This document shows positions 8,103 through 33,168 of a stretch of DNA of 41,382 nucleotides, in pieces (the first letter of the stretch is position 1; every line of letters starts with the position of its first letter). The stretch is from the NCBI GenBank assembly GCA_023512105.1, contig JAIMAE010000008.1, positions 1 through 41,382 on the forward strand, read 5' to 3'. The translations under genes and the position numbers were made by a program. The stretch comes from Bacillota bacterium (lineage in GTDB: Bacteria > Bacillota > Sulfobacillia > Sulfobacillales > Sulfobacillaceae). Under the pieces are notes generated by a model. The model saw only the letters and a list, made by a program, of their open reading frames with translations, searched no databases and had not been told where the DNA came from.

Positions 8103-9177
8103 CGGGGGAGACACCGGACCGGTCCTGGTGGTGGCACCTCACCCGGATGACGAGGTCTTGGGCTGCGGGGGGCTGATCGCCCGCTGGCGGGCTCGAGGGG
8201 TGGCGGTGACGGTGGTGTTGGTCACCCTCGGCGATGGGTTTCGGGAAAACGCCGTCCGCTACTACCTGAGGGTGCCGGTCCAGCCTCACGAGTTTCTGCA
8301 CCTGGGCTACGAGCGCCAGGCGGAGTGTCTGGCCGCCTTGCAGGCGCTGGGGGTCGAGGAGGAGCGGGTCATCGCCTTGGGATTTCCCGACGGGGGGCTG
8401 ATCCATCTCCTCACCGACCGATGGCAAAACCGGCCGTGGCGCAGTCCAACCACCGGGGCCAGCGCGGTGCCCTATTGGACGGCCCAGGCCTGGGAGGTCC
8501 CATACACCGGGTCTGCCTTGGTGGAGCAATTGGCCTCGGTGATGGCGGCGGTGCGCCCGCGCACGATGGTGGTGCCGCATCCGTGGGATCAGCACCCGGA
8601 TCACTGGGCCACCCAGGTGTTCTCGCAGGTGGCGTGGCTCAAAGCCGGACTGCCTGAGGCCAACTGGCTCGGCTATTTAATCCACTGGCCGCGCTGGCCC
8701 CGGCTCAGCCGCGCCTTTCCCTGGCCTCCCAAGGGGCCCCCGTCTCGGTTGCGGGAGCGGCGGTGGTGGCGACACCGGCTGGAGCCGGAGCTCAAAGAGG
8801 CCAAATGGCGCGCCCTCAGCTGCTATCAGTCGCAGCGCGAGCTGATCCTGCCCTTCATGCGCGCGATGTGCGGATGGGAGGAGTGGTTTGGTCTGGACTT
8901 CCGCTGGGACTTGGTCGGCCCTTCCCAGGACACCTGGGGGGTGGGGCTGCAACTCCGCGAGGCCGCGGAGGGCCGGCGCTGCCGGGTGGAAGGAGCAGAC
9001 CGACCGGTCCTGCTCAACCTCTGGGAGGGCCCGGATTGCCGCTATCGTCGGATCGCCCTCGAGCCCGACCGCTCGGTCTTCCTGTCCAGCGAATGGGCGG
9101 TGGCCGCCGCCGAGGTGGGAGCGCGGAGACGCACGCCGGCCTTGCGGCTGGCGGGAGGAGCCGATCCCCGCGCCTGA
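8071..9177 (+). CDS. PIG-L/LmbE family deacetylase
   Basis: A zinc-dependent N-deacetylase fold acting on GlcNAc-like or related amide substrates; the actual substrate is unknown. The metal-binding motif APHPDDEVLGCGG is at residues 22-34, and the second motif HPWDQHPDHWATQ, with the further His ligands, is near residue 170. At 368 residues it is longer than the roughly 230 typical of bacillithiol/LmbE-type members: there is a Trp/Arg/Pro-rich insertion after residue 205 and an extra C-terminal part of about 100 residues with no recognised domain. The GTG at 8071 is inside the biotin-carrier gene; a TTG at 8095 and GTGs at 8128/8131 are alternatives, but the later ones would cut very close to the active-site motif. 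Confidence 0.82.
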   Translation: MPETSWYPLNSGGDTGPVLVVAPHPDDEVLGCGGLIARWRARGVAVTVVLVTLGDGFRENAVRYYLRVPVQPHEFLHLGYERQAECLAALQALGVEEERVIALGFPDGGLIHLLTDRWQNRPWRSPTTGASAVPYWTAQAWEVPYTGSALVEQLASVMAAVRPRTMVVPHPWDQHPDHWATQVFSQVAWLKAGLPEANWLGYLIHWPRWPRLSRAFPWPPKGPPSRLRERRWWRHRLEPELKEAKWRALSCYQSQRELILPFMRAMCGWEEWFGLDFRWDLVGPSQDTWGVGLQLREAAEGRRCRVEGADRPVLLNLWEGPDCRYRRIALEPDRSVFLSSEWAVAAAEVGARRRTPALRLAGGADPRA

Positions 9178-9538
9178 CCGGTAGGGCGGTCAGACAACTT
9201 CTCACTACGGGATCTGGCCCCGGGACCAGGTGGCGAAGCCCTCAAAAACCCACGTCAAGCGCGGAGCGAAAATCCCAAAATCGAAATCTATTATCGAAAA
9301 CATAGTAAATCACAGGCTACTTCTTCGATTATGATTGTCGTGTGACCAGGCGGTTGTCCCAGACTTGCAGCTTGGTTGGACGTCAGCAAGTACTACAGCA
9401 TGACGATAATGCCTACGTTACGGTTCCGCCTTATGCGCTCTACTCGGGATAATTAGTCTGTTGATTCGGAAAAAACGGAATCAGGTCCGTGCAGGCGGAT
9501 AGGCAAGCCAGTCCTAACACCTTCAAGAGGAGGAAACC
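9178..9538. other. Intergenic control region before the aromatic island
   Basis: No gene is seen in these 361 bases. The first part has two GC-rich hairpins without a T run (for example GACCG/CGGTC at 9176-9191). The AT-rich middle contains the shared 67-bp element at 9275-9341, and the similarity to the 16.6 kb copy resumes after a short gap at ACTTGCAGCT near 9363-9372. A GATAAT at 9448-9453 could be a -10 box but has no convincing -35. The fall in GC here marks the left edge of the aromatic gene island. Confidence 0.6.
9275..9341 (+). promoter_or_regulatory. Shared island regulatory element, copy 1
   Basis: An ungapped 67-bp stretch that matches 16633-16699 at about 55 of 67 positions counted by hand. 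The best conserved parts are the left half, with CTATTATCGAAAA, GTAAATCAC, and the right end GATTATGATT. In this copy a CTAT-N10-ATAG dyad surrounds the TATCGA core, and TATGAT at 9330-9335 could be a -10 box with only a poor -35 (AAATCA) 17 bases upstream, as expected for an activator-dependent promoter. It lies about 200 bp ahead of the amidohydrolase start. The proposed binder is the LysR protein encoded at 14000-14926, which is inference. Confidence 0.65.
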
Positions 9539-10564
9539 ATGTATCACGGACTTAAAGTACTCGACGTTCACGGGCATGTTTCAGTGCCCCCCGGATCCAG
9601 CCACCGTCTTGCTCTCTTGTTGGGCTCGAACACTGCTTTGCCCAGTCCGCTGTCCATGGGGCAATCGGTACCCGGGGTAAGCGAGGAGGAGTTCCGCCAG
9701 GCCGCCGCACGCCATGTGGCTTATTTAGATGCCCGGAACATCGATGTCCAGCTTATCGGCCCTAGACCATTCATGATGCTGGGCTGGATGCAACCGCACC
9801 TGTTACCGGCGTGGACTCGGTATGTCAACGACACCATAGCCCAGCAGTGTCGCTTTTATCCGGACCGCTTTGTAGGAGCCTGCCAGTTGCCGCAGAATAG
9901 CGAGGCCAAGGATCTCAGCCACTGCCTGCCCGAGTTGGAGCGGTGCGTTCGCGAACTCGGTTTCGTCGCCGCCTACGTGAGTCCGGACCCTGGAGGAAGG
10001 CGAACTACTCCGGGGATGCATGAGCCCTACTGGTATCCACTTTACGAGGCCTGCGAGGATATGGATATCCCTATCATCGTCCACGGCACCAATTCCCTCG
10101 ATCCCCGATTCGCGGTGGTACCCCACAACTACCAACTGGGGTTTGTCACGGAACAGTACCTGGCGGGTCAGTTTATTTCTCATGGTGACGTGTTTGAGCG
10201 GTTTCCCCGGCTGCGCGTGATTATTTGCCACGCTGGCGGGGCGCTTAACCGGTTCATCCCTTCTGATCCGCATTTGGCTCAAAAGGACTTAAGTCGAAAC
10301 CTGTTTTATGACAGTTGCGCCTATGACCTTCACTTTCTGGAGGCCGCCATCAAACAACGCGGGGTCAGCCAAATGCTTTTTGGTACCGAAGCCCCTGGAT
10401 CCGGGCAGGCGATTCGGCCCGAGACGGGACGAACATCCGATGACCTGGTGCCGGTGATTGCGGAGCTCCCATTCCTGAGCGAAGCCGACCGGCAGGCGAT
10501 CTTTTACCATAATCCGCTGCGAGTGGTACCGGGGTTCGCCAAGGCGCTTGGACCGCAGCCTTGA
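9539..10564 (+). CDS. Amidohydrolase-2 family protein, LigJ-like 4-oxalomesaconate hydratase candidate
   Basis: A 341-residue metal-dependent TIM-barrel protein of the ACMSD/LigJ/LigI group. Likely metal ligands are visible: HGH at residues 11-13, HGTN with His182, HAGG with His231, and Glu284 in FGTEAPGSG. A Glu at the last position is the LigJ pattern, whereas ACMSD-type decarboxylases normally have Asp there. That, together with the nearby RraA-family and LigB-family genes, favours hydration of 4-oxalomesaconate to 4-carboxy-4-hydroxy-2-oxoadipate in gallate/protocatechuate 4,5-cleavage. A decarboxylase or lactonase of the same family cannot be excluded. AAGAGGAGG precedes the ATG. It leads a codirectional run with the Rieske oxygenase and MFS transporter, and its codon use is less GC-biased than the genes to its left. 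Confidence 0.75.
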   Translation: MYHGLKVLDVHGHVSVPPGSSHRLALLLGSNTALPSPLSMGQSVPGVSEEEFRQAAARHVAYLDARNIDVQLIGPRPFMMLGWMQPHLLPAWTRYVNDTIAQQCRFYPDRFVGACQLPQNSEAKDLSHCLPELERCVRELGFVAAYVSPDPGGRRTTPGMHEPYWYPLYEACEDMDIPIIVHGTNSLDPRFAVVPHNYQLGFVTEQYLAGQFISHGDVFERFPRLRVIICHAGGALNRFIPSDPHLAQKDLSRNLFYDSCAYDLHFLEAAIKQRGVSQMLFGTEAPGSGQAIRPETGRTSDDLVPVIAELPFLSEADRQAIFYHNPLRVVPGFAKALGPQP

Positions 10565-10622
10565 CCTGCTGTGTTCGGGAGTGCGACAGAGGGCTGAGAA
10601 ACCCACAAGGAGGTCTCGCGTC

Positions 10623-11930
10623 ATGTTGGATGCCGAAAGTAACAAACTGCTCACCGAGGTGGGGAAAGGCACCCCAATGGGAGAGCTTTTGCGGCGATAT
10701 TGGCATCCTATCGCCGCTGTGACTGAATTCGAAAGCCAGGATCTGAAGCCAGTGCGCCTGTTGGGGGAGGACCTGGTGTTGTTCCGCTCGCGCGAGGGCC
10801 ATTATGGATTGGTGCAGCGCCAATGTGCGCATCGACGTGCGGATCTAAGCTACGGCTGGGTCGATGAGGCAGGCCTTCGCTGCAGCTATCACGGCTGGGC
10901 TTATGATGTCTCGGGGGCATGCGTCAGTCAGCCCTTCGAAGATGTCACCCGCGGCGAACGCAACCAGCGTTTTCGCGATTCGTGCCGTATCACCGCCTAT
11001 CCGGTGCGGGAAATGGCCGGTCTGCTCTTTGCCTACCTCGGTCCGCTGCCTAGCCCAGAGTTGCCGCGATGGGAGTTGTTCGATTACCGGAACGGATTTG
11101 CCCAGATCATCTTTGCCGAAGTGCCCTGCAATTGGCTGCAAGCAGTAGAGAACGACCTGGACCCCGTTCATTTCGAATGGCTTCACGCCAACTGGTCGGC
11201 TCGACAGGCGGGCCGGCGAAACTTTCGGGCCCCTACCCATCTTAAGATCGACGTTTTCGAATGGGAGTTCGGGTTCGGATACCGGCGGATTCTTGAGGAC
11301 ACCACCGAGGCGGACCCGGTGTGGTCGCAGCCTCGCCTGCACCTGATGCCTAACATTTTCATGCCTGGCGGAGAGCACCTGGAGTATCGCGTCCCGGTTG
11401 ACGACCACCGTACGCTGAGCGTGGTGTGGGCTTGGGAGGCGGTGCCGCAAGATCGCGAGCCGTACGTACAAACCCGCATCCCCCATTGGTATGCGCCCAT
11501 CCAGGACCCCGCGACCGGCCGGTGGATCACGACTCACATTATCAATCAAGATACCGTGGCCTGGGTGGGTCAGGGGGTCATAGCCGACAGGACCGCTGAA
11601 CGTCTTGCAAGTTCGGACGTAGGAATCGTGGCGCTGCGGCGCCGCTTGCGCCAGGACCTGGAGGCGGTGGCGCGGGGTCAGGATCCCAGCGGGGTGGTGA
11701 GAGATCCAGACAAGGCGCGGCTGGTGCGTTGGCCGGACAATCGCCGGCCATTGCATGAGAGGGGTCTGCCGCGGGCGGAGTGGCTCCGCCAACTCGAAGG
11801 CCGGCGCCGGCGGGTGGGGATCGGCGAGGATGAGTACTTCATTTTCTACGCCGGCCAGCCCCCTGAGGTCCGACGGGCGTACGAGGAGGCGATGGGGTTG
11901 GCGCCTACCCCGAGGACTCAGCCGGTTTGA
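10623..11930 (+). CDS. Rieske non-heme iron oxygenase, LigX/PobA-like
   Basis: A single-component-type oxygenase subunit of 435 residues. The N-terminal Rieske domain has the CxHx16CxxH motif at C68, H70, C87, H90, and the mononuclear iron site lies in ENDLDPVHFEWLH near residue 180. The opening (GKGTPMGELLRRYWHPIAA) is characteristic of the phenoxybenzoate dioxygenase and dehydrodivanillate O-demethylase branch, so O-demethylation or aryl-ether attack on a lignin-type methoxyaromatic acid is a reasonable guess. It needs a separate ferredoxin reductase, which is not in the window. AAGGAGG sits nine bases ahead of the ATG, and 58 bases separate it from the amidohydrolase gene, so the two are probably cotranscribed. 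Confidence 0.88.
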   Translation: MLDAESNKLLTEVGKGTPMGELLRRYWHPIAAVTEFESQDLKPVRLLGEDLVLFRSREGHYGLVQRQCAHRRADLSYGWVDEAGLRCSYHGWAYDVSGACVSQPFEDVTRGERNQRFRDSCRITAYPVREMAGLLFAYLGPLPSPELPRWELFDYRNGFAQIIFAEVPCNWLQAVENDLDPVHFEWLHANWSARQAGRRNFRAPTHLKIDVFEWEFGFGYRRILEDTTEADPVWSQPRLHLMPNIFMPGGEHLEYRVPVDDHRTLSVVWAWEAVPQDREPYVQTRIPHWYAPIQDPATGRWITTHIINQDTVAWVGQGVIADRTAERLASSDVGIVALRRRLRQDLEAVARGQDPSGVVRDPDKARLVRWPDNRRPLHERGLPRAEWLRQLEGRRRRVGIGEDEYFIFYAGQPPEVRRAYEEAMGLAPTPRTQPV

Positions 11931-12126
11931 AGTCGAGCGTGCAACGTGCTGGAACCATCGCGGCGCCGTTGGAAGTGCAAGGACCCGACGGCGACCCAGC
12001 GGATCGTCCCTCCGCCCCCTGGCCACCTTACACGTCTTCGGGTTCGTACCGGGAACCGCGAGGCAGCCGGGTGGACAGAGATAACCGGTGCTCGCTTCCT
12101 TGTCGGGCAGGCCTAAGATTCATTCA

Positions 12127-12136
12127 ATGATATCAT
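12127..12136. promoter_or_regulatory. Palindrome ahead of the MFS transporter
   Basis: A perfect 10-bp palindrome, ATGATATCAT, in an AT-rich patch 26 bases ahead of the transporter start and 12 bases ahead of its Shine-Dalgarno sequence. It could be an operator or part of a promoter. It only loosely resembles the TATTATCGA element seen elsewhere in the island. The rest of the 231-base gap between the Rieske gene and the transporter shows nothing recognisable. Confidence 0.3.
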
Positions 12137-12162
12137 AATTTTGTAAAAAGGAGGAGACTTTG

Positions 12163-13470
12163 GTGGCTCAAACCGGTCCGGCTCCACGCCCTCGGGAGGG
12201 GGCGAACCAGTCTTACGTCGCCACGTTGGTGGCCATCTGCACTTTAGGCGTCCTTCTGGCAGCCTTTGACTCCATTGCCCGCAACGTAGCCTTTCCGCTC
12301 ATCCTCCATGCGTTGAAGATGAACGTCGCCCAAGGGGCGCTGGTTTTCAGCGGTGCCTTCGGGGTAACCTTTCTGGCCAGCATCCTCATGGGGCCTCTGA
12401 TGGATCGAGTAGGTCGCAAGCGTGCTTTCCTCCTTGCCTTGTTGGCCGCCGGCCTAACCAGCGGTGCTACAGCGTTTATCCAGACCGTAGGACAATATGT
12501 GGCGGTGGGAATCTTGGCCGGGGTGTGTCTTGCGGTCCTTCAGCCGGCGGGGGTTCTGGTCGCCGAAGAGGCCCCGGCTCGTTGGCGAGGTACGCTTTTG
12601 GCCATTACCCATGCCGGGTTTTCCGGCGGGGCAATTCTGGTGAGCCTCATCGGATCTGCGGTACTTCCCAGCGGAAATTGGCGGATGTTGTTTTATCTGT
12701 GCTTCTCACCGCTCCTGCTGGCGGCGGTTGCCACCTTTGTGCTGCGTGAACCGGCCCGCTCGCAAGAGGCGATTGCGGTGAAACGGGCCCGCGACCGCAT
12801 TGCCCGTGGGGAACGGTTGGCGACCAACTTTCAGATTGATGAAGAGAAGGCTACACATAACGAATGGCGTCAGATTTTCGCCCCCGACCTCCGTCGGCAG
12901 ACCATTGTCATTACCATCGCCGGTTTCCTGATTAATTTCAGTCCGGCTCTGGTACTGGCTCTGGGGGTGACCTTTATGACCGTATTCGACCATCTGGCGA
13001 TAGGCGCGGCGTCCCTGGCGATGGCGGTTGAAGGGTTTGCCGTTCTGGTGGGTACCTTGGTTTCAGGATCCCTCACGGACCGCTTCGGCCCTCGCAATGT
13101 AGTCATCCTTTGGACGCTCCTCGGCGGCATCTCCTTGGCGTTACTAGCTATCCGCGGAGAGGCGGGCTGGGTAACGGCCGCGTTGGGTGGGTATGGCTTT
13201 TTCGGACAAGGTGCACTGAGTTCATGGATTAGGTACGTAAACGATTCCTTTCCCACCCGAGCCCGGGGCAGCGGTGTCGGCTTTGTGAACGGCATTTACT
13301 TTCTCGGGGGAGGGATTCTGGGCCCAATACTGTTTGGCAGTTTCATGCAAACCGGCCACGCTCCTGTAGCCCCTCTCGTGGCTGGCGGGTGCTCTATCGC
13401 CAGCGCGTTACTGCTTTTCATGGGGCGTCCAATTCGGCCTCGCTTGGAACTAGAAGAAATCGCTTCGTAA
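12163..13470 (+). CDS. MFS transporter, probable aromatic-acid uptake
   Basis: A 435-residue major facilitator protein with about 12 predicted membrane helices. The loop 2-3 signature is GPLMDRVGRKRAF, repeated in the second half as GSLTDRFGPRN. A charged central cytoplasmic loop of about 50 residues (from KRARDRIARGERLATNFQID onward) separates the two halves and is longer than usual. Proton-linked import of an aromatic acid is inferred from its place between the Rieske oxygenase and the LysR-RraA genes. GTG at 12163 is chosen over TTG at 12160 because AAGGAGGAG at 12148-12156 then has better spacing. A hairpin without a T run follows the stop. Confidence 0.85.
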   Translation: MAQTGPAPRPREGANQSYVATLVAICTLGVLLAAFDSIARNVAFPLILHALKMNVAQGALVFSGAFGVTFLASILMGPLMDRVGRKRAFLLALLAAGLTSGATAFIQTVGQYVAVGILAGVCLAVLQPAGVLVAEEAPARWRGTLLAITHAGFSGGAILVSLIGSAVLPSGNWRMLFYLCFSPLLLAAVATFVLREPARSQEAIAVKRARDRIARGERLATNFQIDEEKATHNEWRQIFAPDLRRQTIVITIAGFLINFSPALVLALGVTFMTVFDHLAIGAASLAMAVEGFAVLVGTLVSGSLTDRFGPRNVVILWTLLGGISLALLAIRGEAGWVTAALGGYGFFGQGALSSWIRYVNDSFPTRARGSGVGFVNGIYFLGGGILGPILFGSFMQTGHAPVAPLVAGGCSIASALLLFMGRPIRPRLELEEIAS

Positions 13471-13999
13471 ACCTTGGGCGTTGTTGGCACGGAGCCCGCG
13501 CTGTTCCGTGCTGCTGTACGTGGTCAGGACGGCAAATAGGTAGCAGGTAGTCAGAACGAGGTGTGAGGGGCGGCCGAGTCGACTGGTGGAGAGTTTTTGT
13601 CGGCCGACTTGGCTGCTCCCGTATGCGCATCCCACCAGCTTCGGTCAGCGAGATGTTCGCGTGCCTTCGCAAGAGCTCTCTTGGCCGGGCGAGTTTCGCA
13701 GTGACGAAGGGTATGGCAGAGGTCGTGGCGTCGAATGCGCCCGTTCCGTGCCCTTGGAGGCGCCGTGCTCGGTTTACCGCCGCCCAGACCCTTGAGGGAA
13801 TAGGTGCAGATGGAACTGGCGCCGCGACGGCACGTGCGCCGCGGGTCCGCGCACCGGTCCAGCGGGGTGCTCGGGGGAGAACGTGATGCGGTAGAAGAGC
13901 GGAGAATAGGGCTCAGTGACGTACCCTGGAGCAGAATCCGGTCACGGTAATCCGGGCACTCTCAACCGGTGCACGCCTTGTTATTCTCCTGGTGAGCCG
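13471..13999. other. Gene-free gap between convergent MFS and LysR genes
   Basis: About 530 bases with short overlapping open frames but no ribosome binding site plus recognisable protein. Apart from the hairpin at 13487-13511 nothing specific is seen. It may hold remnants of lost genes; none could be identified by reading all frames. Confidence 0.5.
13487..13511 (+). terminator. Hairpin downstream of the MFS gene
   Basis: GCACGGA pairs perfectly with TCCGTGC over an 11-base loop, starting 16 bases after the transporter stop. No T run follows, so it may be a weak or factor-dependent terminator or an mRNA-stabilising structure. Confidence 0.35.
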
Positions 14000-14926
14000 T
14001 CAATAAGGGTCCCCGCTACCCGGACTGGGAAGAAAGGTCGTAAAGGTTCGCCCCTGATCGCGGATGCTTTGTGCGCACTCTGCCAACAGCGCAAGGCCTT
14101 CCTCGCTTCCCGCCCGCGGGTATTTATGTTCGATCCAGTAGCAAGTGCGCTCCGGAGGCGGGACCGTAAGGGTGAACACGGTGAAATGGCCGGTGGCCTC
14201 AAAGGCTCGCGCCATCGATAATGGGACGATGGCCCATTGGTCCCGGCTCGTCATAAAGGCCATAATTAGCTGTGCCGTGTCTAAGGCCACCAACGGGGCG
14301 TCCCGGGAACCCCACCATTGCTCGTGCCACGACTGAAAGAGCGGACCCCAGTTGATGTACAGTTCGTGGCGGGGGTTCAGGTCCCGCGGATGTACGGGCT
14401 CGGTTGGGGTTCCTTCGCGAACCGGGCGAATCAGCACCAGCGGTTCGGAAAAAAAGGTCTTCACAACGACGTTCGGCACAAATCGTTCATGGAGCACGAA
14501 GGCCACGTCCAGCTCACGATGTTCGATGAGCGCATACAATTCCGCAGATTGTTGAGTACGCAATTCAATCTTCATCGAGGGAGCCCGCTGGCGCAGTAGC
14601 CGGTAGACGGGAGGCAGCACAAAGGCATTGACGCTATCCACCGATCCAATGGAGAGGGACAGCGTCACCCCACTGCGAAATTGTCGAATCTCTCGACGAA
14701 GCGAATCCCATCGTTCGGCAATGGCCAGAAAACGTTGTCCTGCCGGAGTTAGATGAATGGACCGCAAGCCCCGCCTCCGATCGATCAGTTGGACTCCCAT
14801 CTCTTTTTCGAGCTCCTCGAGACGGTGGCTGACAGTGGATTGGGAGAGATGCAAGTGCTGCGACGCGCGCAAGAGGCTTCCCGACCGTGCGATTTCGAGA
14901 AACGCTTCAATGCCGAGCGTATACAT
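14000..14926 (-). CDS. LysR family transcriptional regulator
   Basis: A 308-residue LysR-type regulator with an N-terminal winged helix-turn-helix (GSLLRASQHLHLSQSTVSHR, then LEELEKEMGVQLIDRR) and a C-terminal inducer-binding domain (from about residue 90). Translation from the ATG at 14926 is chosen because AAAGGAG lies seven bases upstream; a longer frame adds only seven residues. It is divergent from the RraA operon at 15176 with about 250 bases between, the classic arrangement for autoregulation and activation of the facing operon. That gap holds a relative of the element found upstream of 9539 and 16830, so it is the best candidate for the island-wide regulator. The inducer is probably an aromatic acid or pathway intermediate (inference). 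Confidence 0.9.
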   Translation of the reverse strand: MYTLGIEAFLEIARSGSLLRASQHLHLSQSTVSHRLEELEKEMGVQLIDRRRGLRSIHLTPAGQRFLAIAERWDSLRREIRQFRSGVTLSLSIGSVDSVNAFVLPPVYRLLRQRAPSMKIELRTQQSAELYALIEHRELDVAFVLHERFVPNVVVKTFFSEPLVLIRPVREGTPTEPVHPRDLNPRHELYINWGPLFQSWHEQWWGSRDAPLVALDTAQLIMAFMTSRDQWAIVPLSMARAFEATGHFTVFTLTVPPPERTCYWIEHKYPRAGSEEGLALLAECAQSIRDQGRTFTTFLPSPGSGDPY

Positions 14927-14976
14927 TGCCAACTCCTTTCCGAGCACCTCAACCAGAGTGGTTTGGGCAAAACAAT

Positions 14977-15020
14977 CGTATATATTATCGACAAAAACAA
15001 TAAACTCATGGCTGTTTATA
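14977..15020 (+). promoter_or_regulatory. Shared island regulatory element, looser copy 3
   Basis: The stretch carries TATTATCGA at 14983-14991 followed by an A-rich block, then TAAAC-TCATGGCT, which lines up with small gaps against the TATTATCGAAAA ... TAAATCACAGGCT part of copy 1. Right of this is a perfect inverted repeat, ATAAAC (15000-15005) and GTTTAT (15014-15019) with an eight-base spacer, and the tandem GTTTATAGTTTATA. It is about 50 bp from the LysR start and about 160 bp ahead of the first RraA gene, in the same orientation as the other copies. Confidence 0.5.
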
Positions 15021-15175
15021 GTTTATATTAATTTCTGGGCTGGCGGGAGCCTCGAAGTGGGGTTGCGAAATCCATGCGGGCGAGCGATGGGAACGGATGC
15101 CCGGGTCCATCTTGAGTTGGGCAAACCCTCAGAAACAGGCCGATCTTAATAGCGTAAGAAGCGAGGTTAGACAGA

Positions 15176-15847
15176 ATGTCGGACGTCAGTGATCGGTTGG
15201 CATCGTTGGATGCTTGTGCCCTCTCGGACGCGCTTGACCTCCTAGGTTTGCGAGGGGCCACGTCTGGCATCCGACCCCTATGGGAAGGGGCGCGACTGTC
15301 GGGGCGCGTGGTGACGGTCAAGGTCAAACCGGTGGGGGCGGTTCCGGCGGCCGAACATCTCGGGATCAGGGCGATCCTCCTGGCGGAACCGGGTGACGTA
15401 ATCGTGGTGGACCACGGGGGGCGGCTGGACGTTTCGGCTTGGGGTGGACTTTTGGCCGTGTCCGCACAGATGCGCGGCGTCGAGGGCGTGATCATCGACG
15501 GCGCCTGTCGGGATGTAGATGAATTTCGAGCGTTAAAGTTTCCGGTCTTCGCCCGTGGCGCGGTGCCGTTCACGGCGCGGGGTCGCGTCATGCAAGAAGC
15601 GGTGAACGTTGAGGTGCAATGTGCTGGCGTTGCGGTGGCCCCGGGCGACTACGTCTTGGCCGACGCCAGCGGGGTGGTGTTTATCCCGGCTGCGCGAGCC
15701 GAGGAAGTACTCGCGGCAGCGGAGCGAATTGCCGCCAGGGAGGCGGAGATGGCCAGCGCGATTCGCCGCGGCGTCCCTCCCGACCAAGCCTTGGGTGCGT
15801 ACGAGGGCATGTTGCGCAAGGAGGCAAGAAACCATGAACCACGATGA
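15176..15847 (+). CDS. RraA/aldolase-superfamily protein 1
   Basis: A 223-residue protein of the RraA fold, a superfamily that contains 4-carboxy-4-hydroxy-2-oxoadipate (CHA) and HMG aldolases, oxaloacetate decarboxylases and the RNase E inhibitor RraA. The central signature is present (GVIIDGACRDVDEFRAL, Arg112-Asp113, then FPVFARG). In class II aldolases of this family an acidic metal ligand is expected 21 residues before that Arg (D-x20-RD); here the residue is Gly91. It may therefore not be an aldolase, or may act together with the protein encoded directly downstream. The ATG has GAGG nine bases upstream. It overlaps the second RraA gene by 14 bases, and the operon is divergent from the LysR gene. 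Confidence 0.85.
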   Translation: MSDVSDRLASLDACALSDALDLLGLRGATSGIRPLWEGARLSGRVVTVKVKPVGAVPAAEHLGIRAILLAEPGDVIVVDHGGRLDVSAWGGLLAVSAQMRGVEGVIIDGACRDVDEFRALKFPVFARGAVPFTARGRVMQEAVNVEVQCAGVAVAPGDYVLADASGVVFIPAARAEEVLAAAERIAAREAEMASAIRRGVPPDQALGAYEGMLRKEARNHEPR

Positions 15848-16487
15848 CGTGCTAGAGCAATTCCGACAGCTGCCCATCGCGGCCGTTTCCGATGCCCTAG
15901 ATCGCCTGGGGATTGCCGGTCAATGCCATGGCCTGAGGCCTTTGCAATTTGGCTGGGCCATGGTTGGTCGTGCTTTTACGGTCGAATACCGCCCGTGCGG
16001 GGTGGTTAAGGGAACGGTGGGCGACTTTATCGATGACGTGCCTCCTGGGGCAGTGGTGGTGTTGGACAACGCGGGGCGCACCGACTGCACGGTCTGGGGG
16101 GATATCTTAACGTTAACTGCTTCGCGGCGCCGGGTGGCGGGCACCGTGATCTGGGGGGTCTGCCGCGATGTGCGCAAGAGTCGCGAGCTCGATTATCCCA
16201 TATTCAGCTGTGGTCACTATATGCGCACGGGGAAGGACCGCGTCGAAGTGGCTCACCTAAACCAGCCGGTTGCGCTGGCGGAAGTCCAGGTCGCACCGGG
16301 AGATCTCGTAATTGGCGACGACGACGGGGTGCTGGTGGTGCCTCAATCTAGAGAAGTGGAGGTCTTGCGGGTGGCCCAGGAGATTGAGGCCGCAGAGCGG
16401 AGTATCATTGGCGCGGTGGAAGCGGGATATCCTCTTCGGGAGGCCCGCGAGCAGTTCCGCTACCATACTTTGCAACGGCACGAATAG
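15834..16487 (+). CDS. RraA/aldolase-superfamily protein 2, CHA-aldolase candidate
   Basis: A 217-residue RraA-fold protein. It keeps the D-x20-R-D motif: Asp90 in VWGDIL and Arg111-Asp112 in GVCRDV, consistent with a divalent-metal pyruvate aldolase that would cleave CHA to pyruvate and oxaloacetate. The substrate assignment is inferred from the neighbouring ring-cleavage genes. AAGGAGG at 15819-15825 and ATG at 15834 lie inside the end of the previous gene, so translation is probably coupled and the two products could form a mixed oligomer. Sequence between the two is clearly divergent, so this is an old duplication rather than a recent one. Confidence 0.87.
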   Translation: MNHDDVLEQFRQLPIAAVSDALDRLGIAGQCHGLRPLQFGWAMVGRAFTVEYRPCGVVKGTVGDFIDDVPPGAVVVLDNAGRTDCTVWGDILTLTASRRRVAGTVIWGVCRDVRKSRELDYPIFSCGHYMRTGKDRVEVAHLNQPVALAEVQVAPGDLVIGDDDGVLVVPQSREVEVLRVAQEIEAAERSIIGAVEAGYPLREAREQFRYHTLQRHE

Positions 16488-16632
16488 TCGGCGGCTAAAC
16501 CTGGACCCACTGGGCGGTGTGGATTCGGGTGCTATCCTTTCTCAGGAACGCGTGGCAGAGGTAACTTGCTCCTCGCGCACCACGCGCCCTGTGCCGTATG
16601 CCCCGTAAGCCGTCATCGAGCCACTGGGACGT

Positions 16633-16699
16633 CCAAAAGCGAGATCTATTATCGAAAAGATGGTAAATCACCGTCAACTCGGTTGATTATGATTCTCGT
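16633..16699 (+). promoter_or_regulatory. Shared island regulatory element, copy 2
   Basis: The partner of 9275-9341, without gaps over 67 bases. It sits about 130 bp ahead of the third RraA gene within a 342-base gene-free gap. TATGAT at 16688-16693 is a possible -10 box, with AAATCA again at the -35 position. After a short deletion relative to copy 1, ACTTGCAGCT at 16711-16720 also matches. The left dyad is CTAT-N10-ATGG here, so one half is less perfect than in copy 1. The rest of the gap (16488-16829) shows nothing else. Confidence 0.65.
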
Positions 16700-16829
16700 T
16701 GGGCGAGGCGACTTGCAGCTAGCGAGACTGCAGGAGTGGGGCTCACCGAGAACGGCCAGATCCGGTCGCACTGGGGACAGGAACCGATGCTCGTGCCCCG
16801 ACATCAGACGACAAGGAGGTACGGCGGAG

Positions 16830-17507
16830 GTGCATCCAGAGACAGGCGATGCTGCTGGGCATTTCCCAGAGAGTTGGGGGCCCGATAGCCCTGAGGGGTG
16901 GCTTGCATTAGGAAGCGCAACGATTTATGAAGCCGGGGGGCTGCCTTGTGCAATGGACCCCGCCATTCGCTCGATCTCTGGGGTGGCTGTTGCGGGGGCA
17001 GCATTCCCGGTGGTCTGCGCCGCAGGCGACAACCTTGCGCTGCACCTGGCCATACTCGAAGCTCCCCCGGGCAGTGTGTTGGTCGTCAGCGCTGGTGGGA
17101 TCATGGGTGGATACTGGGGCGAAGTGATGACGGTTGCCGCCCAAGCGCGAGGAATTGCGGGATTGGTCATTGACGGTGCGGTCCGAGATGTCCAGGCCCT
17201 TCGAAACCGTCGGTTCCCTGTGTTTGCCCGAGGACTGGCCATATTACACACGACTAAACATGAACCCGGGGTCCGGGGAGGTCCTACGGTGGTGGGAGGT
17301 ATGCTCGTTCACGCCGGAGACTGGGTGGTAGCGGACGAGGATGGGGTGGTGATCGTTCCCCAGTCGTTGCGACACCGGGTTTGGGAGCAAGCGCTGGAGC
17401 GGGCGAGAAAGGAAGCTGACTACCTCAACCGGTTAAGCCAAGGAGCCACCACGCTTGAATTGTATGGGCTAAAGGCCCCCACCGGTGAGCGCGTGGGGGG
17501 TCATTGA
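16830..17507 (+). CDS. RraA/aldolase-superfamily protein 3
   Basis: A 225-residue RraA-fold protein, the third of its family within 2.4 kb. It carries the acid at the expected place (Glu98 in YWGEVM) 21 residues before Arg119-Asp120 in DGAVRDV, so a metal-dependent aldolase or decarboxylase role is plausible. Its N-terminus (GWLALGSATIYEAGG) is that of the CHA-aldolase-like branch. GTG at 16830 is chosen because AAGGAGG lies at 16813-16819; a frame extending upstream to 16566 would run through the regulatory element and has no supporting similarity. It has its own copy of the shared element upstream and is followed after 109 bases by the ring-cleavage dioxygenase. Confidence 0.85.
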   Translation: MHPETGDAAGHFPESWGPDSPEGWLALGSATIYEAGGLPCAMDPAIRSISGVAVAGAAFPVVCAAGDNLALHLAILEAPPGSVLVVSAGGIMGGYWGEVMTVAAQARGIAGLVIDGAVRDVQALRNRRFPVFARGLAILHTTKHEPGVRGGPTVVGGMLVHAGDWVVADEDGVVIVPQSLRHRVWEQALERARKEADYLNRLSQGATTLELYGLKAPTGERVGGH

Positions 17508-17616
17508 GGGACCGCCAAGAACGCAATCCAACATGTGAGAAGTGTGTAACGGTTGCCTACGAGGCTAGGAGCTGCAGGGGTTGGTGCTACAAGTTGGGTT
17601 AAAGGAGGGGGGTACC

Positions 17617-18573
17617 ATGGCTGACATCGTGTTGGGGGTGGGGACCAGTCACAGTCCCCAATTGAATATCCCTGTAGACCAGTGGGACCTGTTGGTTCGG
17701 AAGGACGAAGAAGACCCTGCATTGAATTACTCAGAACTGCTGGCCAGGGCACCGGCTGGGATCGCCGAGCGCATCACGCCCCAGGCTCGCGGAGGGGCGA
17801 TGGAACGGGCGCAAGTGGCAATTCGGAGTCTTGCCGCGGCGTTGGAGACGGCGCGCCCCGATGTCGTGTTGGTCATTGGAGACGACCAGCACGAACTCTT
17901 TTCTGCCACCTACCAGCCGATGTTTTGCATTTTTGCTGGGCCCTCTACCATTTCGCGCCGTCCGTTTCGTCCCAATGCTCCAGCCTGGCTTCAGGTCGAG
18001 CTGGCTACCGAACCGGTCGAACCGATATCGCATCCGGGCCACCCCGAATTGGCGCTGTACCTCATTGACGCCGTTATCGCCGAGGGGTTCGATGTCGCCG
18101 TGTCGCTGCAATGGCCTCCGGACATCGGCCTGGGCCATGCCTTTTCGTTTTTGTATCGGCGGTTGACGCCCCGGGCGGACCTGCCGATGGTCCCCGTGAT
18201 GGTCAACACCTTCTATCCTCCCAACCAGCCGTCCCCTGCTCGGTGCCTAGCATTCGGGAGGGCACTAGGAAAAGCCTTGCGCCGTTGGCCAAGTAGCACG
18301 CGGGTAGCCGTGGTGGCATCCGGTGGTTTGAGCCACGTGGCATTGGACGAGGATTTAGACCATTCGGTGCTGCGGGCCTTGGAGACCCACGATGAGGACG
18401 CGCTCTGTCGTCTGCCGGAGCAGGCGCTGGTGCAAGGCACCTCAGAAATCCGAAACTGGCTGGTAGCGGCCGGGATGTTTAACGACCGTCGCTTTCGCTT
18501 AGTGGACTACGTCCCTGCGTATCGCTCGCCAGCGGCTACCGGTACAGGTTTTGCCTTCGCCTTGTGGGAGTAA
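17617..18573 (+). CDS. Class III extradiol ring-cleavage dioxygenase, LigB family
   Basis: A 318-residue LigB-superfamily protein related to the catalytic subunits of protocatechuate 4,5-dioxygenase and to gallate dioxygenases. It starts MADIVLGVGTSHSP with the conserved first His (His12); further conserved pieces are VLVIGDDQHELF (residues 84-95), GLGHAFSF, and the ASGGLSH motif near residue 230. At the position of the second LigB metal ligand (His61 in Sphingobium LigB) the sequence appears to read Gln91, followed by His92. No LigA-like small subunit gene is adjacent, so it may act alone like gallate dioxygenase. AAAGGAGGGG precedes the ATG. It is 29 bases from the FAD hydroxylase gene. Confidence 0.85.
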   Translation: MADIVLGVGTSHSPQLNIPVDQWDLLVRKDEEDPALNYSELLARAPAGIAERITPQARGGAMERAQVAIRSLAAALETARPDVVLVIGDDQHELFSATYQPMFCIFAGPSTISRRPFRPNAPAWLQVELATEPVEPISHPGHPELALYLIDAVIAEGFDVAVSLQWPPDIGLGHAFSFLYRRLTPRADLPMVPVMVNTFYPPNQPSPARCLAFGRALGKALRRWPSSTRVAVVASGGLSHVALDEDLDHSVLRALETHDEDALCRLPEQALVQGTSEIRNWLVAAGMFNDRRFRLVDYVPAYRSPAATGTGFAFALWE

Positions 18574-18602
18574 GCAGGGGGAACAGTGGGGAGGCGCGGC
18601 GC

Positions 18603-20198
18603 ATGGCTATGTCTTCACCGGAGGGCGTGGTCATCATTGGGGGCGGGCCGGTCGGGCTTGGATTAGCCGTCGAACTCGGTCAACGCCACATCCCCGTGTT
18701 GCTGGTGGAACGGCGGGAGGCCATGCATCACATCCCTAAGGGTCAAAATCTTACCCAGCGTACCCTGGAACACTTTTACTTCTGGGGTTGCGTCGAGGCG
18801 TTGCGGAAGGCCCGACTTCTGCCGCCAGGTTACCCGATTGGGGGTATCACCGCCTACGGTAACCTCCTGAGCCGGTACTGGTACGCCGCTCCTGGCCGGG
18901 AGGTGGTCAATGACTTCTACTTCCAGACCAACGAGCGGCTGCCCCAATACCTTACTGAGGCGGTGTTGCGGCAGCGGGCGCAACTGTTGCCGACCGTGCG
19001 GTGTCTGTATGGCTGGCGGGCAGTGGAGATCAAGGCAGGGCCGACCGGAGTTGCGGTGGCCATCGAGCCCATGGACAACTCCGAACCGGTTCGATGGGTG
19101 ACCGGCCAATACCTGGTTGGCTGCGATGGAGCGCACTCCCTGGTTCGCGAGGCGGTCGGAATCGGGCGGAGGGGCCCTCGGTTCGACCAACGGATGGTGT
19201 TGGCGGTGTTTCGTTCTCGGGCCCTTCACAAACACCTGGCGCGCTTTCCGCCCCGCACCACGTATCGCGTCCTGCGCCCGGAGTTCAAGGGTTATTGGCA
19301 ATTCTTTGGCCGCGTGGACGTGGGGGAGGGGTGGTTTTTTCACGCCCCGGCTTTTCCCGAGGCCGAGAAGGATTCCAGGGCGGTGGTCAAGATCCTCCAT
19401 CAAGCCGCCGGTTTCGATTTTCCCGCCGTGATGGAACACGTGGGGTTTTGGGACCTGCGGGTGGAAGTGGCAGAAGTCTATCAAGAGGGCCGGGTGTTCA
19501 TCGCCGGAGACGCCGCCCACAGCCACCCACCCTATGGGGGATATGGCCTCAATTCCGGGTTAGAGGATGTGGTTAACCTGGGGTGGAAGCTGGCGGCGGC
19601 TTTGGGGGGGTGGGCAGGGCCAGGGCTGCTGGCATCGTATAGCGCCGAGCGCCAACCGGTCTTCCAGGAGACCGGGGACGCGATCGCGCGGGCGATCGCG
19701 GAGGATCGGAAGTTCTTAGAGACCTACTCACCGGAACGGGACATTGCGGCGTTCGAAGCGGCGTGGGCGCGGATGGCGTCGAACTTGCCCAGCCCCCAAG
19801 CCTACGAACCCCATTACGAAGGATCGCCGCTGGTTTGGGGTCCGCCCGGCGGGCGATGCGGCATTTATGGTCAGCACCTCCGCACGGCGCGCCCTGGCCA
19901 TCACCTCTTCCCGCTGGCTTTAAGCTCGGGGCGCAATGTTTACGAGGAATTGGGGAACTTCTTTACGCTCGTGGCCACCGGCGATCCAGCCCCGTTGACG
20001 GATTGGGAGCGCGCGGCCCAGCGGCTGGGCATCCCGCTCAAGGTGGTATGGGAACCGCATCCAGAGAGGTTACAGAGCTGGGCAAACCAGTGGGTGTTGG
20101 TCCGACCGGATCAGTACGTGGCGTGGGCGGCGGAAGCAAGTCCACCCGATCCCGCGACGATCCTGGCCCGCGCGGTGGGGCACCTCACTGCCCAGTGA
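18603..20198 (+). CDS. FAD-dependent aromatic hydroxylase
   Basis: A 531-residue class A flavoprotein monooxygenase of the PheA/TfdB/MhpA type, which hydroxylates phenolic rings using NAD(P)H and oxygen. Motifs are in order: the dinucleotide fold GGGPVGLG at residues 13-20, the DG motif LVGCDGAHSLVREAVG around Asp175, and the GD motif VFIAGDAAHSHPPYGGYGLN around Asp303. A C-terminal thioredoxin-like part, common in the phenol hydroxylase group, is likely after about residue 410. The product would plausibly be the catechol- or pyrogallol-type acid opened by the adjacent dioxygenase; the substrate is not predictable from the sequence alone. ATG at 18603 has GGGGAGG upstream; another ATG follows two codons later. 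Confidence 0.87.
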   Translation: MAMSSPEGVVIIGGGPVGLGLAVELGQRHIPVLLVERREAMHHIPKGQNLTQRTLEHFYFWGCVEALRKARLLPPGYPIGGITAYGNLLSRYWYAAPGREVVNDFYFQTNERLPQYLTEAVLRQRAQLLPTVRCLYGWRAVEIKAGPTGVAVAIEPMDNSEPVRWVTGQYLVGCDGAHSLVREAVGIGRRGPRFDQRMVLAVFRSRALHKHLARFPPRTTYRVLRPEFKGYWQFFGRVDVGEGWFFHAPAFPEAEKDSRAVVKILHQAAGFDFPAVMEHVGFWDLRVEVAEVYQEGRVFIAGDAAHSHPPYGGYGLNSGLEDVVNLGWKLAAALGGWAGPGLLASYSAERQPVFQETGDAIARAIAEDRKFLETYSPERDIAAFEAAWARMASNLPSPQAYEPHYEGSPLVWGPPGGRCGIYGQHLRTARPGHHLFPLALSSGRNVYEELGNFFTLVATGDPAPLTDWERAAQRLGIPLKVVWEPHPERLQSWANQWVLVRPDQYVAWAAEASPPDPATILARAVGHLTAQ

Positions 20199-20380
20199 AG
20201 GATGGGGCGAGAGACGCGATGGCCGGCAGGGAGTTGTTCGATTTGAATTGAAGGGTTTTACCTGCTGGATAGGGAAAACAGGGACGCGACCCGGGCGCCC
20301 TCTTCGCATCGAAGGGCGCAGCAGGGGGCGCGAGACCGAGGCTGGTCGGTATCTCCTGTGTGGGCAGGGAGGTGAACGAG

Positions 20381-21721
20381 ATGGGCAGTCTCAAACCGGA
20401 TCATTTGCGAACAATTCGCGAGGCAATGGATCGAGGGCTTCTTCCGCGGTGGGTGCTAACCGATCCGGACATCTACGCCCTCGAACAGGAGAAAATCTTC
20501 GCCCGCACTTGGCAGTTCTTGGCTCATGAGTCGGAGCTGCCGCGACCTGGGGATTTTGTTACCCGCTGGATGGTGCACGATCCGGTAATCGTAATTCGCG
20601 GCGACGACGGAGTGGTGCGGGCTTTCCTAAACTCCTGCTCCCATCGAGGAACACTCTTGTGTGGCGCCGATTTCGGCAATCAAAAGGTCTTTAGCTGTCC
20701 TTATCATGGATGGACCTTTAATCACTATGGGGAACTGGTGGGCGTCGCGCTGGCCAACCAAGTGTGGGGGCCGGAACTCAAGCGAGAGGAGTGGGGATTG
20801 CGGCCGATTCCCCGCCTGCAGGCGTATCAGGGACTGATCTTCGGGAACCTCGATCCAGCGGCGCCGCCGTTGACGGACTACTTGGGCGACATGAGGTGGT
20901 ACCTCGATCTGATAATGGGGCGAACTGGGGGAATGGAGGTACGGGGTGTCCCCCACCGGTGGGTGGTGGAGGGCAACTGGAAGCTATTGTACGAAAACTT
21001 TACCGGCGATCCCTACCATGTGCAGAGCACACACCGATCCACCGTGGAGTTGGGCATTACCCCCAACCGCACCCTGGGAGCCGACCGGAAAGGGTATCAG
21101 GTGGTGTTGCAGAATGGACACGGGGTCAACGTGACGCTCTATACCGAGATCCCCGAGAGGCCTTTTCAACGCATGCCAGAAGAGACGTGGCCACTCTTCC
21201 GGCGCCATCTCACGCCGGTGCAACACGACCTGATGCAGCGGGCCTCGGTGTTCGTCGGAGGGGTGTTTCCCACGCTATCCTTTGTGAGCCCGCTCCACGG
21301 CACCGAAGGGGACCTCTACAACTTCCTCAACTTTCGCGTGTGGAGGCCGATCGACCCCTGCCACGTGGAGGTGTGGTCGTGGTTTCTAATCGATCGGGCG
21401 GCCCCGGAGGGATACAAGCAGGCGGCCTACAAGGGGTACATCGACTCGTTTGGCCCGTCGGGCACACTCGAGCAGGACGACACCGAGATGTGGGCGCGAG
21501 TGATGCAGGCGAGCCAGGGGTGGATGGCGCGTGACAGGACCCTCCAGTACCAAAACGTCATGAACTACCTGATGGGGTGGGGCCGGGTGGACCCGGATCC
21601 CGGTTTTCCGGGGCCGGGGACGGCCTATCCAGGACTGGTGGACGCGGTATCGCGCAGCACGCACCGTTACTGGTTTGGTCTGTTGACGGACGGCGCCGAC
21701 GGGGAGGGGGATCTAGGATGA
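20381..21721 (+). CDS. Aromatic ring-hydroxylating dioxygenase, alpha subunit
   Basis: The catalytic large subunit of a two-subunit Rieske dioxygenase, 446 residues. The Rieske cluster motif is CxHx17CxxH at C86, H88, C106, H109, and the catalytic iron site is within YENFTGDPYHVQSTH near residue 210. The acidic third ligand is probably in the LEQDDTEMW segment. Length and motifs fit the benzoate/biphenyl/phenylpropionate dioxygenase class. ATG at 20381 follows GGGAGGTG; an in-frame GTG at 20360 is less well supported. The stop overlaps the beta-subunit start as ATGA. About 180 bases separate it from the FAD hydroxylase gene, with no clear promoter. Ferredoxin and reductase genes are not adjacent. 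Confidence 0.9.
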   Translation: MGSLKPDHLRTIREAMDRGLLPRWVLTDPDIYALEQEKIFARTWQFLAHESELPRPGDFVTRWMVHDPVIVIRGDDGVVRAFLNSCSHRGTLLCGADFGNQKVFSCPYHGWTFNHYGELVGVALANQVWGPELKREEWGLRPIPRLQAYQGLIFGNLDPAAPPLTDYLGDMRWYLDLIMGRTGGMEVRGVPHRWVVEGNWKLLYENFTGDPYHVQSTHRSTVELGITPNRTLGADRKGYQVVLQNGHGVNVTLYTEIPERPFQRMPEETWPLFRRHLTPVQHDLMQRASVFVGGVFPTLSFVSPLHGTEGDLYNFLNFRVWRPIDPCHVEVWSWFLIDRAAPEGYKQAAYKGYIDSFGPSGTLEQDDTEMWARVMQASQGWMARDRTLQYQNVMNYLMGWGRVDPDPGFPGPGTAYPGLVDAVSRSTHRYWFGLLTDGADGEGDLG

Positions 21722-22218
21722 ACCTCGAAATACGGGCCGCAATCGAGGAGTTTCTGTACCACGAGGCATACCTCCTAGACCATCACCGTTATCTAGAGTG
21801 GCTCGACTTGCTGACTGATGACATCGTTTACCGAATGCCGGTACGGGTCACGCGCGAGCGACGCGAAGGCGACGACGTGCATTCGGTGGCCGTCTATTTT
21901 GACGAAACCAAGGCATCGTTAGAAAAGCGGGTGCGCCGCCTCTACGTACGTTCGGCATGGGTGGAGGAGAACCAGCCTCGCCAACGTCACTTTGTGACCA
22001 ACGTGATGGTTCGCCCCACCGACGAGACCGATGAATACGCCGCTCTCAGTTACTTCCTGGTGTTGCGAAGCCGTGGCAGCAACCATGATCTCGACCGCAT
22101 CTTCGGACAACGCGATGACCGCTTGCGGTTGGTAAACGGGACCTGGAAACTTGCGCGGCGGGAGATCTTGGTAGACGAGGCCAGTCTGCATGCCATCAAT
22201 CTGAGTCTGTTCTTTTAA
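21718..22218 (+). CDS. Aromatic ring-hydroxylating dioxygenase, beta subunit
   Basis: The small structural subunit (166 residues, SnoaL/NTF2-like fold) that completes the alpha3beta3 oxygenase. Family features are the opening AIEEFLYHEAYLLDHHRYLEWLD split by the usual turn, followed by LLTDDIVYRMPV, then the SAWVEENQPRQRHFVTNV segment and the C-terminal WKLARREILVDEA. ATG at 21718 overlaps the alpha stop by four bases, so subunit amounts are coupled. After the stop an AAAAGGAG site and an ATG at 22229 look like the start of another cistron, but the frame that follows soon becomes the antisense of ctaG and is not recognised. Confidence 0.9.
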   Translation: MNLEIRAAIEEFLYHEAYLLDHHRYLEWLDLLTDDIVYRMPVRVTRERREGDDVHSVAVYFDETKASLEKRVRRLYVRSAWVEENQPRQRHFVTNVMVRPTDETDEYAALSYFLVLRSRGSNHDLDRIFGQRDDRLRLVNGTWKLARREILVDEASLHAINLSLFF

Positions 22219-29365: not shown

Positions 29366-30628
29366 CTATGCCCGTTCCGCCACTGGAATCCACTCCACTC
29401 GAGGAGTCCCCTCGAGTTCGAGCGATGCGCGGGGATCGAGTCGGTATCCTACCACCACCGCTTGACTGCGGCCGTAAAGGGCTTCTAACCACTGGGCGCG
29501 TCGACGAGCGCGCTCCACGTCAGACCTATCGACAGTGGTGGAAACCTCGGCTGCAATCCACACCTCGCCCTCGGTATCGCGGGCCCTGGCTACCGCATCG
29601 ATCTGGAGTAACTCTAGACGCTCCTTTTCTCCAATTTTCCCGGCATCCAGAAACTCGTCTAATTGCTCAGCCCAATCCTCTGGAGACAGGCATCGCACCC
29701 TTCGGTACCCCCTGGTCCCCAGGTAGGCCGGTGCCAAGCGGGGGAAGCGAACCTCTAGAAATTGTCCACGAAGGTCGCCAGTCTGAGCCTCCAAACGCGC
29801 AACCCGAGCTTCAAGGCGGGCCTGGGCTTCGGCCAAGGCGTCCAGGCGGGCTTCGGTGCGCTTCAGCGCCTCGGCCAGTTCCTGCAGCCGCGCTTCAGTC
29901 CGGGTCTGGGCTTCGGCCAAGGCGTCCAGGCGGGCTTCGGTGCGAGCCTGCGCCTCGGCCAGTTCCTGCAACCGCACTTCAGTCCGGGCCTGGGCTTCGG
30001 CCAACTCCTGGAGGCGGGCTTCGGTGCGAGCCTGCGCCTCGGCCAGTTCCTGCAACCGCGCTTCAGTCCGGGTCTGGGCTTCGGCCAAGGCGTCCAGGCG
30101 GGCTTCGGTGCGCTCCTGCGCCTCGGCCAGTTCCTGCAGCCGCGCTTCAGTCCGGGTCTGGGCTTCGGCCAACTCCTGGAGGCGGGCTTCGGGGCGAGCC
30201 TGCGCCTCGGCCAGTTCCTGCAACCGCACTTCGGTCCGGGTCTGGGCTTCGGCCAACTCCTGGAGGCGGGCTTCGGGGCGAGCCTGCGCCTCGGCCAATT
30301 CCTGCAACCGCGCTTCAGTCCGGGCCTGGGCTTCGGCCAGGGCGTTGAGGGGCGAGGTCAAACTCTGTAGCGCCGCCTCGGTATGCTCGTGTTGCACCCG
30401 CATCGTTTCTAACAGCGCCTCGAACCGAGCCTCCAGATGCACCACGGTCTCGCCCAGGGACGCGAGCAACGTTTCGGTTTGACGCTGGGATTCGGCAATT
30501 GAACGGACTAATTCCGGCAGCGCCAACAAGTCCTCATTCAGGAGAACGCGTCTCAACTCCCGTTGCCATTCCGGATGGGCCTCTAAAAAGTGGAGCAAAT
30601 CATGGAAATCCCCGACATCAAAGGACAA
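29366..30628 (-). CDS. Coiled-coil repeat protein with nuclease-like C-terminal domain
   Basis: A 420-residue protein of unknown function. Residues 1-93 are helical. Residues 94-275 are 13 tandem 14-residue units of the form LQELAEAQARTEAR (two heptads each), predicting one long coiled coil. The C-terminal 145 residues form a compact domain with GQFLEVRFPRLAPAYLGTRG, then LQIDAVARA and a strand WIAAEVSTTV. The spacing of D and E-x-S resembles the PD-(D/E)xK-like folds found in the DUF3782-type proteins common in cyanobacteria and thermophiles, with Ser/Thr where Lys would be expected. The TTG start has GGAGGTGA seven bases upstream on this strand. The function may be DNA-related, but this is a guess. 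Confidence 0.8.
   Translation of the reverse strand: MSFDVGDFHDLLHFLEAHPEWQRELRRVLLNEDLLALPELVRSIAESQRQTETLLASLGETVVHLEARFEALLETMRVQHEHTEAALQSLTSPLNALAEAQARTEARLQELAEAQARPEARLQELAEAQTRTEVRLQELAEAQARPEARLQELAEAQTRTEARLQELAEAQERTEARLDALAEAQTRTEARLQELAEAQARTEARLQELAEAQARTEVRLQELAEAQARTEARLDALAEAQTRTEARLQELAEALKRTEARLDALAEAQARLEARVARLEAQTGDLRGQFLEVRFPRLAPAYLGTRGYRRVRCLSPEDWAEQLDEFLDAGKIGEKERLELLQIDAVARARDTEGEVWIAAEVSTTVDRSDVERARRRAQWLEALYGRSQAVVVGYRLDPRASLELEGTPRVEWIPVAERA
29804..30349 (-). repeat. Tandem 42-bp coding repeats (13 units)
   Basis: Thirteen consecutive 42-bp units encode the 14-residue coiled-coil repeats. The units fall into LQEL and LDAL types with small changes (T/A/E before RTEAR, and RPEAR in two units), and several neighbouring pairs are nearly identical over 84 bp. 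Such DNA is prone to gain or loss of units by slippage, and to assembly error with short reads. Confidence 0.9.
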
Positions 30629-33070: not shown

Positions 33071-33168
33071 CGTATACCTCCTTAGTCGCGCTGGAACTGA
33101 CAAGGCCGGGGCCGGTGAGTGACGGGTTCGATATTCGCCCAGGACCATGATCGGCGACTGCACCTTCT

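Follow-up and report, generated by a model that had tools for sequence, protein, structure and literature searches.

Organization of the locus

The window, that is, the whole stretch of 41,382 nucleotides analysed here, carries an amidohydrolase, a LigB-type extradiol dioxygenase, three RraA-family proteins, two Rieske oxygenases and an FAD hydroxylase, together with a LysR-type regulator (Table 1). The gene set suggests a route of ring hydroxylation and extradiol cleavage followed by a LigJ/LigK-like lower pathway. Among solved structures, the product of the 9539 gene is closest to the meta-cleavage hydrolase LigY (E 3.9e-46), followed by 4-oxalomesaconate hydratase (E 6.4e-43). Each of the three RraA-family proteins matches an aldolase model of the LigK kind or a related one without reaching the curated cut-off; that encoded at 16830 is closest to 4-carboxy-4-hydroxy-2-oxoadipate aldolase models, again below their cut-offs. 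The 15834 gene is probably in one operon with 15176, and the RraA pair is kept beside lysR in a genome of the same genus (G001). The Rieske genes from 20360 onwards are assumed, by gene order, to belong to the 16830 unit.

The lysR product contains both domains expected of its family (PF00126, E 5.2e-18; PF03466, E 3.5e-19) and is the only regulator recognised by Pfam among the 30 window ORFs scanned (150 listed). Its true start is probably the ATG at 14926, judging from the translation and from the position at which alignments to its homologues begin.

Table 1. Coordinates of the element copies and neighbouring genes in the window
Feature	Position	Strand	Remarks
Element copy 1 (78 bp)	9275..9352	+	5' of amidohydrolase/Rieske genes; 62/78 to copy 2
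Copy 1 box TTAT-N11-TAAA	9291..9309	+	Common-register reading; whole-genome pattern search
Copy 1 putative -10 TATGAT	9330..9335	+	Offset 39 from TTAT, same in 3/3 copies; role inferred
ACTTGCAGCT at copy 1	9363..9372	+	Common to copy 2, 10 bp displaced
Amidohydrolase, first gene behind copy 1	9539..10564	+	Nearest solved relatives: LigY hydrolase, 4-oxalomesaconate hydratase
Rieske oxygenase with LigXa_C match	10548..11930	+	
LysR-type regulator (HTH_1 + LysR_substrate), likely binder	14000..14947	-	Pfam
Element copy 3 (diverged)	14969..15046	+	lysR/rraA gap; 37/78 in register to copy 1 and to copy 2
Copy 3 box TTAT-N11-ATAA, perfect T-N11-A dyad	14985..15003	+	Register and pattern search
Copy 3 putative -10 TATATT	15024..15029	+	Offset 39 from TTAT
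RraA-family protein, first gene behind copy 3	15176..15847	+	
Second RraA-family protein	15834..16487	+	ATG start read from translation
Element copy 2 (78 bp)	16633..16710	+	5' of RraA/LigB/FAD hydroxylase genes
Copy 2 box TTAT-N11-TAAA	16649..16667	+	Common-register reading; whole-genome pattern search
Copy 2 putative -10 TATGAT	16688..16693	+	Offset 39 from TTAT
ACTTGCAGCT at copy 2	16711..16720	+	Common to copy 1
Third RraA-family protein, first gene behind copy 2	16830..17507	+	GTG start inferred
LigB-type extradiol dioxygenase	17581..18573	+	
FAD-dependent aromatic hydroxylase	18564..20198	+	
Rieske ring-hydroxylating alpha subunit	20360..21721	+	Beta subunit in ORF 21577-22218

Some further features of the window are recorded here in their own right. 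LigB-type relatives at E 1e-10 number 8 in the genome under study (G000) and 6 in G001, one of them lying at 32105-33163 on the minus strand of the window. A palindrome, ATGATATCAT, occupies an AT-rich stretch (12115-12160) just before the MFS gene at 12160; in the gap before this gene, alignment to the element did not rise above shuffles. A 42-bp repeat array at 29720-30391, in which a 252-nt unit recurs in 11 overlapping register copies, falls inside a 420-aa minus-strand ORF (29366-30628) that has a weak DUF1664 match below the cut-off.

A 78-bp repeat before two gene sets

A preliminary description of this DNA had reported a repeated 67-bp promoter element, matched by hand count at about 55 positions (9275-9341 and 16633-16699). 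The count is exactly 55/67, and the ungapped match extends to 62/78 (9275-9352 versus 16633-16710), with background identity of 20/78 on each side. Copies 1 and 2 share a 13-mer, GTAAATCAC, GATTATGATT and later ACTTGCAGCT, the last displaced by 10 bp between them; all the words singled out earlier are present in both. The non-coding, gene-facing placement originally described is likewise borne out, as both copies lie between likely genes and each faces a plus-strand gene (9539 and 16830). A mechanical ORF (8763-9305) and the upstream extension of another (16566-17507) touch the copies and are taken as chance reading frames.

A third copy defines a common layout

A third, diverged copy, absent from the preliminary description, was found in the divergent lysR/RraA gap (14985-15029, plus strand). 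In local alignment against this gap copy 1 scores 34, reached by 0/500 dinucleotide shuffles, and copy 2 scores 24, reached by 13/500. When the 41-kb window was scanned on both strands with a held-out matrix built from copies 1 and 2 only, from box to -10, copy 3 (14985, plus strand) was the top remaining site (20.7, next 14.5). This score was reached in 2/2000 shuffles of the gap and in 12/2000 shuffles of its AT-rich core. The signal is weaker with a box-only matrix (16.4; 21/2000 gap and 35/2000 core shuffles), and with the full matrix the AT-rich core gives 147/2000, the core cutting the 78-bp site by one base.

All three copies can be read in the common register TTAT-N11-WWAA-N20-TATNNT. 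The left arm and the spacing of a LysR box are retained in copies 1 and 2, but their right arm is TAAA in place of the ATAA of copy 3, so that they are not strict T-N11-A dyads. The dyad is perfect (TTAT-N11-ATAA) in copy 3 and in the corresponding site of G001, and reads TTAT-N11-TAAA in copies 1 and 2 and TTAT-N11-TTAA in G010, a genome of the same family.

Distribution of the element

The genome under study comprises 3,477,346 bases (3.48 Mb) in 404 contigs and is 96.83% complete. A BLAST search of it with 9265-9400 returned the query itself, copy 2 (E 4.6e-13) and beyond these just short matches, the first of 19 bp at E 0.22. The pattern TTAT-N11-WWAA-N20-TATNNT has three matches in this genome, all on the plus strand, facing 9539, 15176 and 16830, and all within 7.4 kb around lysR; read backwards as a control, it has one. 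Since the pattern was written from the three copies, its informative part is the absence of matches elsewhere in the genome. It has 0 matches in G001 and 0 in G010. With two mismatches allowed, a loose search for the box recovers the three copies plus three additional locations in the genome under study (control 1), none in G001 and 8 in G010 (control 3). The three additional matches (C9:2148-2168, C107:17996-18016 and C236:1185-1205) are likely due to chance.

A sequence-only profile built from copies 1-3 and the G001 site was run on 34 genomes of the family, that under study included. Only its four source sites fell below E 0.05 (all ≤8e-10), the next match being at E 0.054 in G022; 150 first-look candidates were scored in most of these genomes, and all of them in G000 (65), G001 (31) and G010 (144). 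In G000 the profile gives three copies, and no fourth among the 65 candidates scored. By BLAST, 13 of the 34 family genomes, again including G000, have a match at E ≤1, those outside G000 being 15-25 bp long. The best of the latter, an exact 19-bp match to the 3' part of copy 1 (G018:C2:491050-491068, E 0.006), is probably a chance one.

Across the 42 genomes of the order, which include the family and G000, there was no further match at E 0.01. Plasmid records gave no DNA match to the element, and the LysR relatives among them are all below 60% identity. No clear copy was found in the 600 bp upstream of each of 15 amidohydrolase relatives: of the 30 alignments (15 loci with copies 1 and 2, against single-base shuffles), 3 exceed the 95% shuffle level, 1 equals it and 0 exceed the shuffle maximum.

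An interspersed repeat, the case earlier named as telling against a shared promoter, is rejected, as is a mobile element. BLAST, pattern and profile find no further copy in G000: over its 3.48 Mb, BLAST gives two copies and the profile three, all within 7.4 kb.

The LysR protein and its relatives

Among the 42 genomes of the order (E 1e-30), homologues of the LysR protein were found in G001 (72%) and G010 (52%), together with a paralogue in the genome under study itself (contig C46, 46%). Seven further homologues, at 35-46% identity, came from 154 genomes of the class (E 1e-40) and from 398 genomes of the phylum sampled from a larger group (E 1e-50).

Comparison of orthologous loci, also proposed at the outset, shows that G001 keeps a site in the lysR/rraA gap. 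There lysR is divergent from two RraA genes (75-77% to 15176 and 15609), and the lysR / rraA-rraA gene order is conserved. With the matrix of copies 1 and 2, this gap holds the top site of 20 kb (15.9, next 11.9), a score reached in 7/2000 gap shuffles; with copy 3 added to the matrix the site scores 26.6 (next 10.6), and its box-only score is reached by 13/2000 shuffles. G001 has no relative of the 9539 amidohydrolase at E 1e-30. In G010, lysR adjoins LigB, amidohydrolase (77%) and three RraA genes. Scored by the box matrix, the TTAT-N11-TTAA of its gap comes only third in 15 kb (12.3, against 15.0 for the top site), and the longer matrices and the profile give no match to it.

An AT-only perfect T-N11-A dyad lies 5' of lysR in 6 of 10 genes (shuffle mean 2.1; 6 reached in 2/300 shuffles). 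This set includes the window's own gene and was reduced from 11 (7/11 with the dyad) by leaving out the near-duplicate L048. Dyads with spacings of 10 and 13 are likewise in excess, in 5/10 genes each (5 and 7 of 300 shuffles), and the N11 excess is therefore treated as supporting evidence only.

A second lysR cluster occurs in the genome under study (C46:1-4880), where the paralogue (46%) is divergent from an amidohydrolase gene (41-43% to 9539) followed by RraA and Rieske genes; the element matrix finds no match at this locus. At three loci in other genomes (L024, L026 and L041) a 9539-type amidohydrolase is clustered with LigB and RraA genes, and no significant element copy was detected in these clusters.

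A proposed local LysR regulon

The element probably combines operator and core promoter, and through it the neighbouring LysR protein would control a small local regulon, a reading in which we have reasonably good confidence. In its simplest form, the protein would bind the TTAT-N11-WWAA box at three promoters and, with a pathway intermediate as the presumed co-inducer, would activate three transcription units. The predicted units start at 9539 (amidohydrolase and Rieske oxygenase), at 15176 (two RraA proteins) and at 16830 (RraA, LigB dioxygenase, FAD hydroxylase and perhaps the Rieske genes beyond), the operon limits being provisional. The lysR gene itself is also a likely target. The left arm of the copy 3 box reads GATAAT on the minus strand, -10-like for lysR, and because the box covers it, LysR could repress its own gene.

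The preliminary description had envisaged a promoter element with TATGAT as -10, bound by the LysR protein and coordinating two units. This core idea is partly supported: it has gained from copy 3 in the lysR gap and from the G001 site, and falls short in that the dyad is not strict in copies 1 and 2 and that the candidate promoters number three.

If TATGAT/TATATT is the -10 and transcription starts about 7 nt after it, the 78 bp would reach from about -67 to about +11, and a hand count puts the box centre near -42. Published descriptions of LysR activators place their binding near -65, and a secondary site stretches to below -35 (PMC4834489). On direct reading, none of the three copies has an AT-rich hexamer where a -10 would be expected for a box at -65. 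This leaves two readings, an unusual geometry or a true -10 at another position.

Copies 1 and 2 might instead have arisen when a short promoter segment was duplicated, in which case they share an origin and no regulator. They are indeed far more alike (62/78) than either is to copy 3 (37/78), their identity falls to background outside the match, and even the spacer agrees at 13/20 positions. A duplication alone is nevertheless unlikely, in that the gap next to lysR carries this box and layout both at copy 3 and at the G001 site, and mismatches between copies 1 and 2 amount to 3/34 in the box and -10 blocks against 13/44 outside (Fisher p 0.027, for blocks chosen after the data were seen). Another regulator, encoded at a different place in the genome, might instead use the element as its operator, with lysR merely adjoining one target; this too is rather improbable. 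The departure of copies 1 and 2 from strict LysR dyads is compatible with such a regulator, as are the presumed box centre near -42, which would be unusual for a LysR activator as described (PMC4834489), and the regulator survey, which covered 30 window ORFs only. On the other hand, box and LysR stay together in G001, AT-rich T-N11-A dyads recur 5' of LysR homologues, and the three pattern matches are confined to 7.4 kb around lysR.

That the element forms part of a transcribed RNA structure, or the end of a mobile element, appears highly improbable. Copy 2 does fold somewhat better than shuffles (z -1.69; 12/200 fold as well), but neither copy 1 (z -0.04) nor the 100 nt following each copy (z 0.00 and -0.63) does so, and the window has no Rfam match at gathering scores. 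The small number of copies in the genome, two by BLAST and three by profile, argues against a mobile-element end.

Possible growth of the regulon

In G001 a single site is present, at the lysR / rraA-rraA core; the genome under study has two further cassettes before ring-cleavage operons. We tentatively consider, as a possibility that is more doubtful than the local LysR regulon itself, that this regulon grew by copying of a promoter cassette, with the box near -42 and LysR acting at the -35 region. Loss of cassettes in G001, instead of gain in the genome under study, is possible. If both the -42 geometry and cassette copying hold true, the locus would be a small, clean example of a catabolic regulon gaining members; without them it would be an ordinary local LysR regulon. 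For the local LysR regulon as such, the sequence alone predicts which operons of an aromatic cluster switch together, and by which protein, and yields a 45-bp pattern found only three times in the genome.

Comparison with known systems

The closest known systems are GalR, LigR and ThnR, of which the first two are described as LysR activators with few sites in their own ring-cleavage cluster (PMC9942251, PMC12710314). Since GalR and LigR are reported to work likewise, the term 'undescribed regulon', used initially, is too strong as regards the kind of system. The present system would probably work like GalR and LigR.

GalR governs the gallate regulon of Pseudomonas putida KT2440 and, as here, is a LysR protein encoded divergently from a ring-cleavage pathway gene (PMC9942251). 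Its sites were predicted by comparison, within nearly 40 nt of conserved DNA containing two LysR-type sites, and it activates two promoters, compared with three elements here (PMC9942251). The divergent neighbour in the present locus is an RraA gene, and the layout differs from that of GalR. The GalR effector is reported to be 4-oxalomesaconate (PMC9942251), which a LigJ-like enzyme such as the 9539 product could use.

LigR is a LysR activator of Novosphingobium aromaticivorans and Sphingobium SYK-6, and in N. aromaticivorans two DAP-seq sites flank ligR, 5' of the operons of the 4,5-extradiol branch (PMC12710314). Like the present boxes, its conserved site contains TTAT, which in LigR sites overlaps a T-N11-A (PMC12710314). 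The LigR motif TT-N-GC-N6-TTAT (PMC12710314) is absent on direct reading from copies 1-3 and from the G001 site. LigR sites lie at -51 to -85 (-48 to -80 in SYK-6; PMC12710314), whereas the box here would be centred near -42.

ThnR, which acts in tetralin degradation, resembles the regulator proposed here in being a single LysR protein that serves multiple promoters within one catabolic system, including divergent promoters close to each other (PMC4834489). The pathway is a different one. At three of the ThnR promoters the primary site is centred at -64, and at one it is centred at about -76 (PMC4834489).
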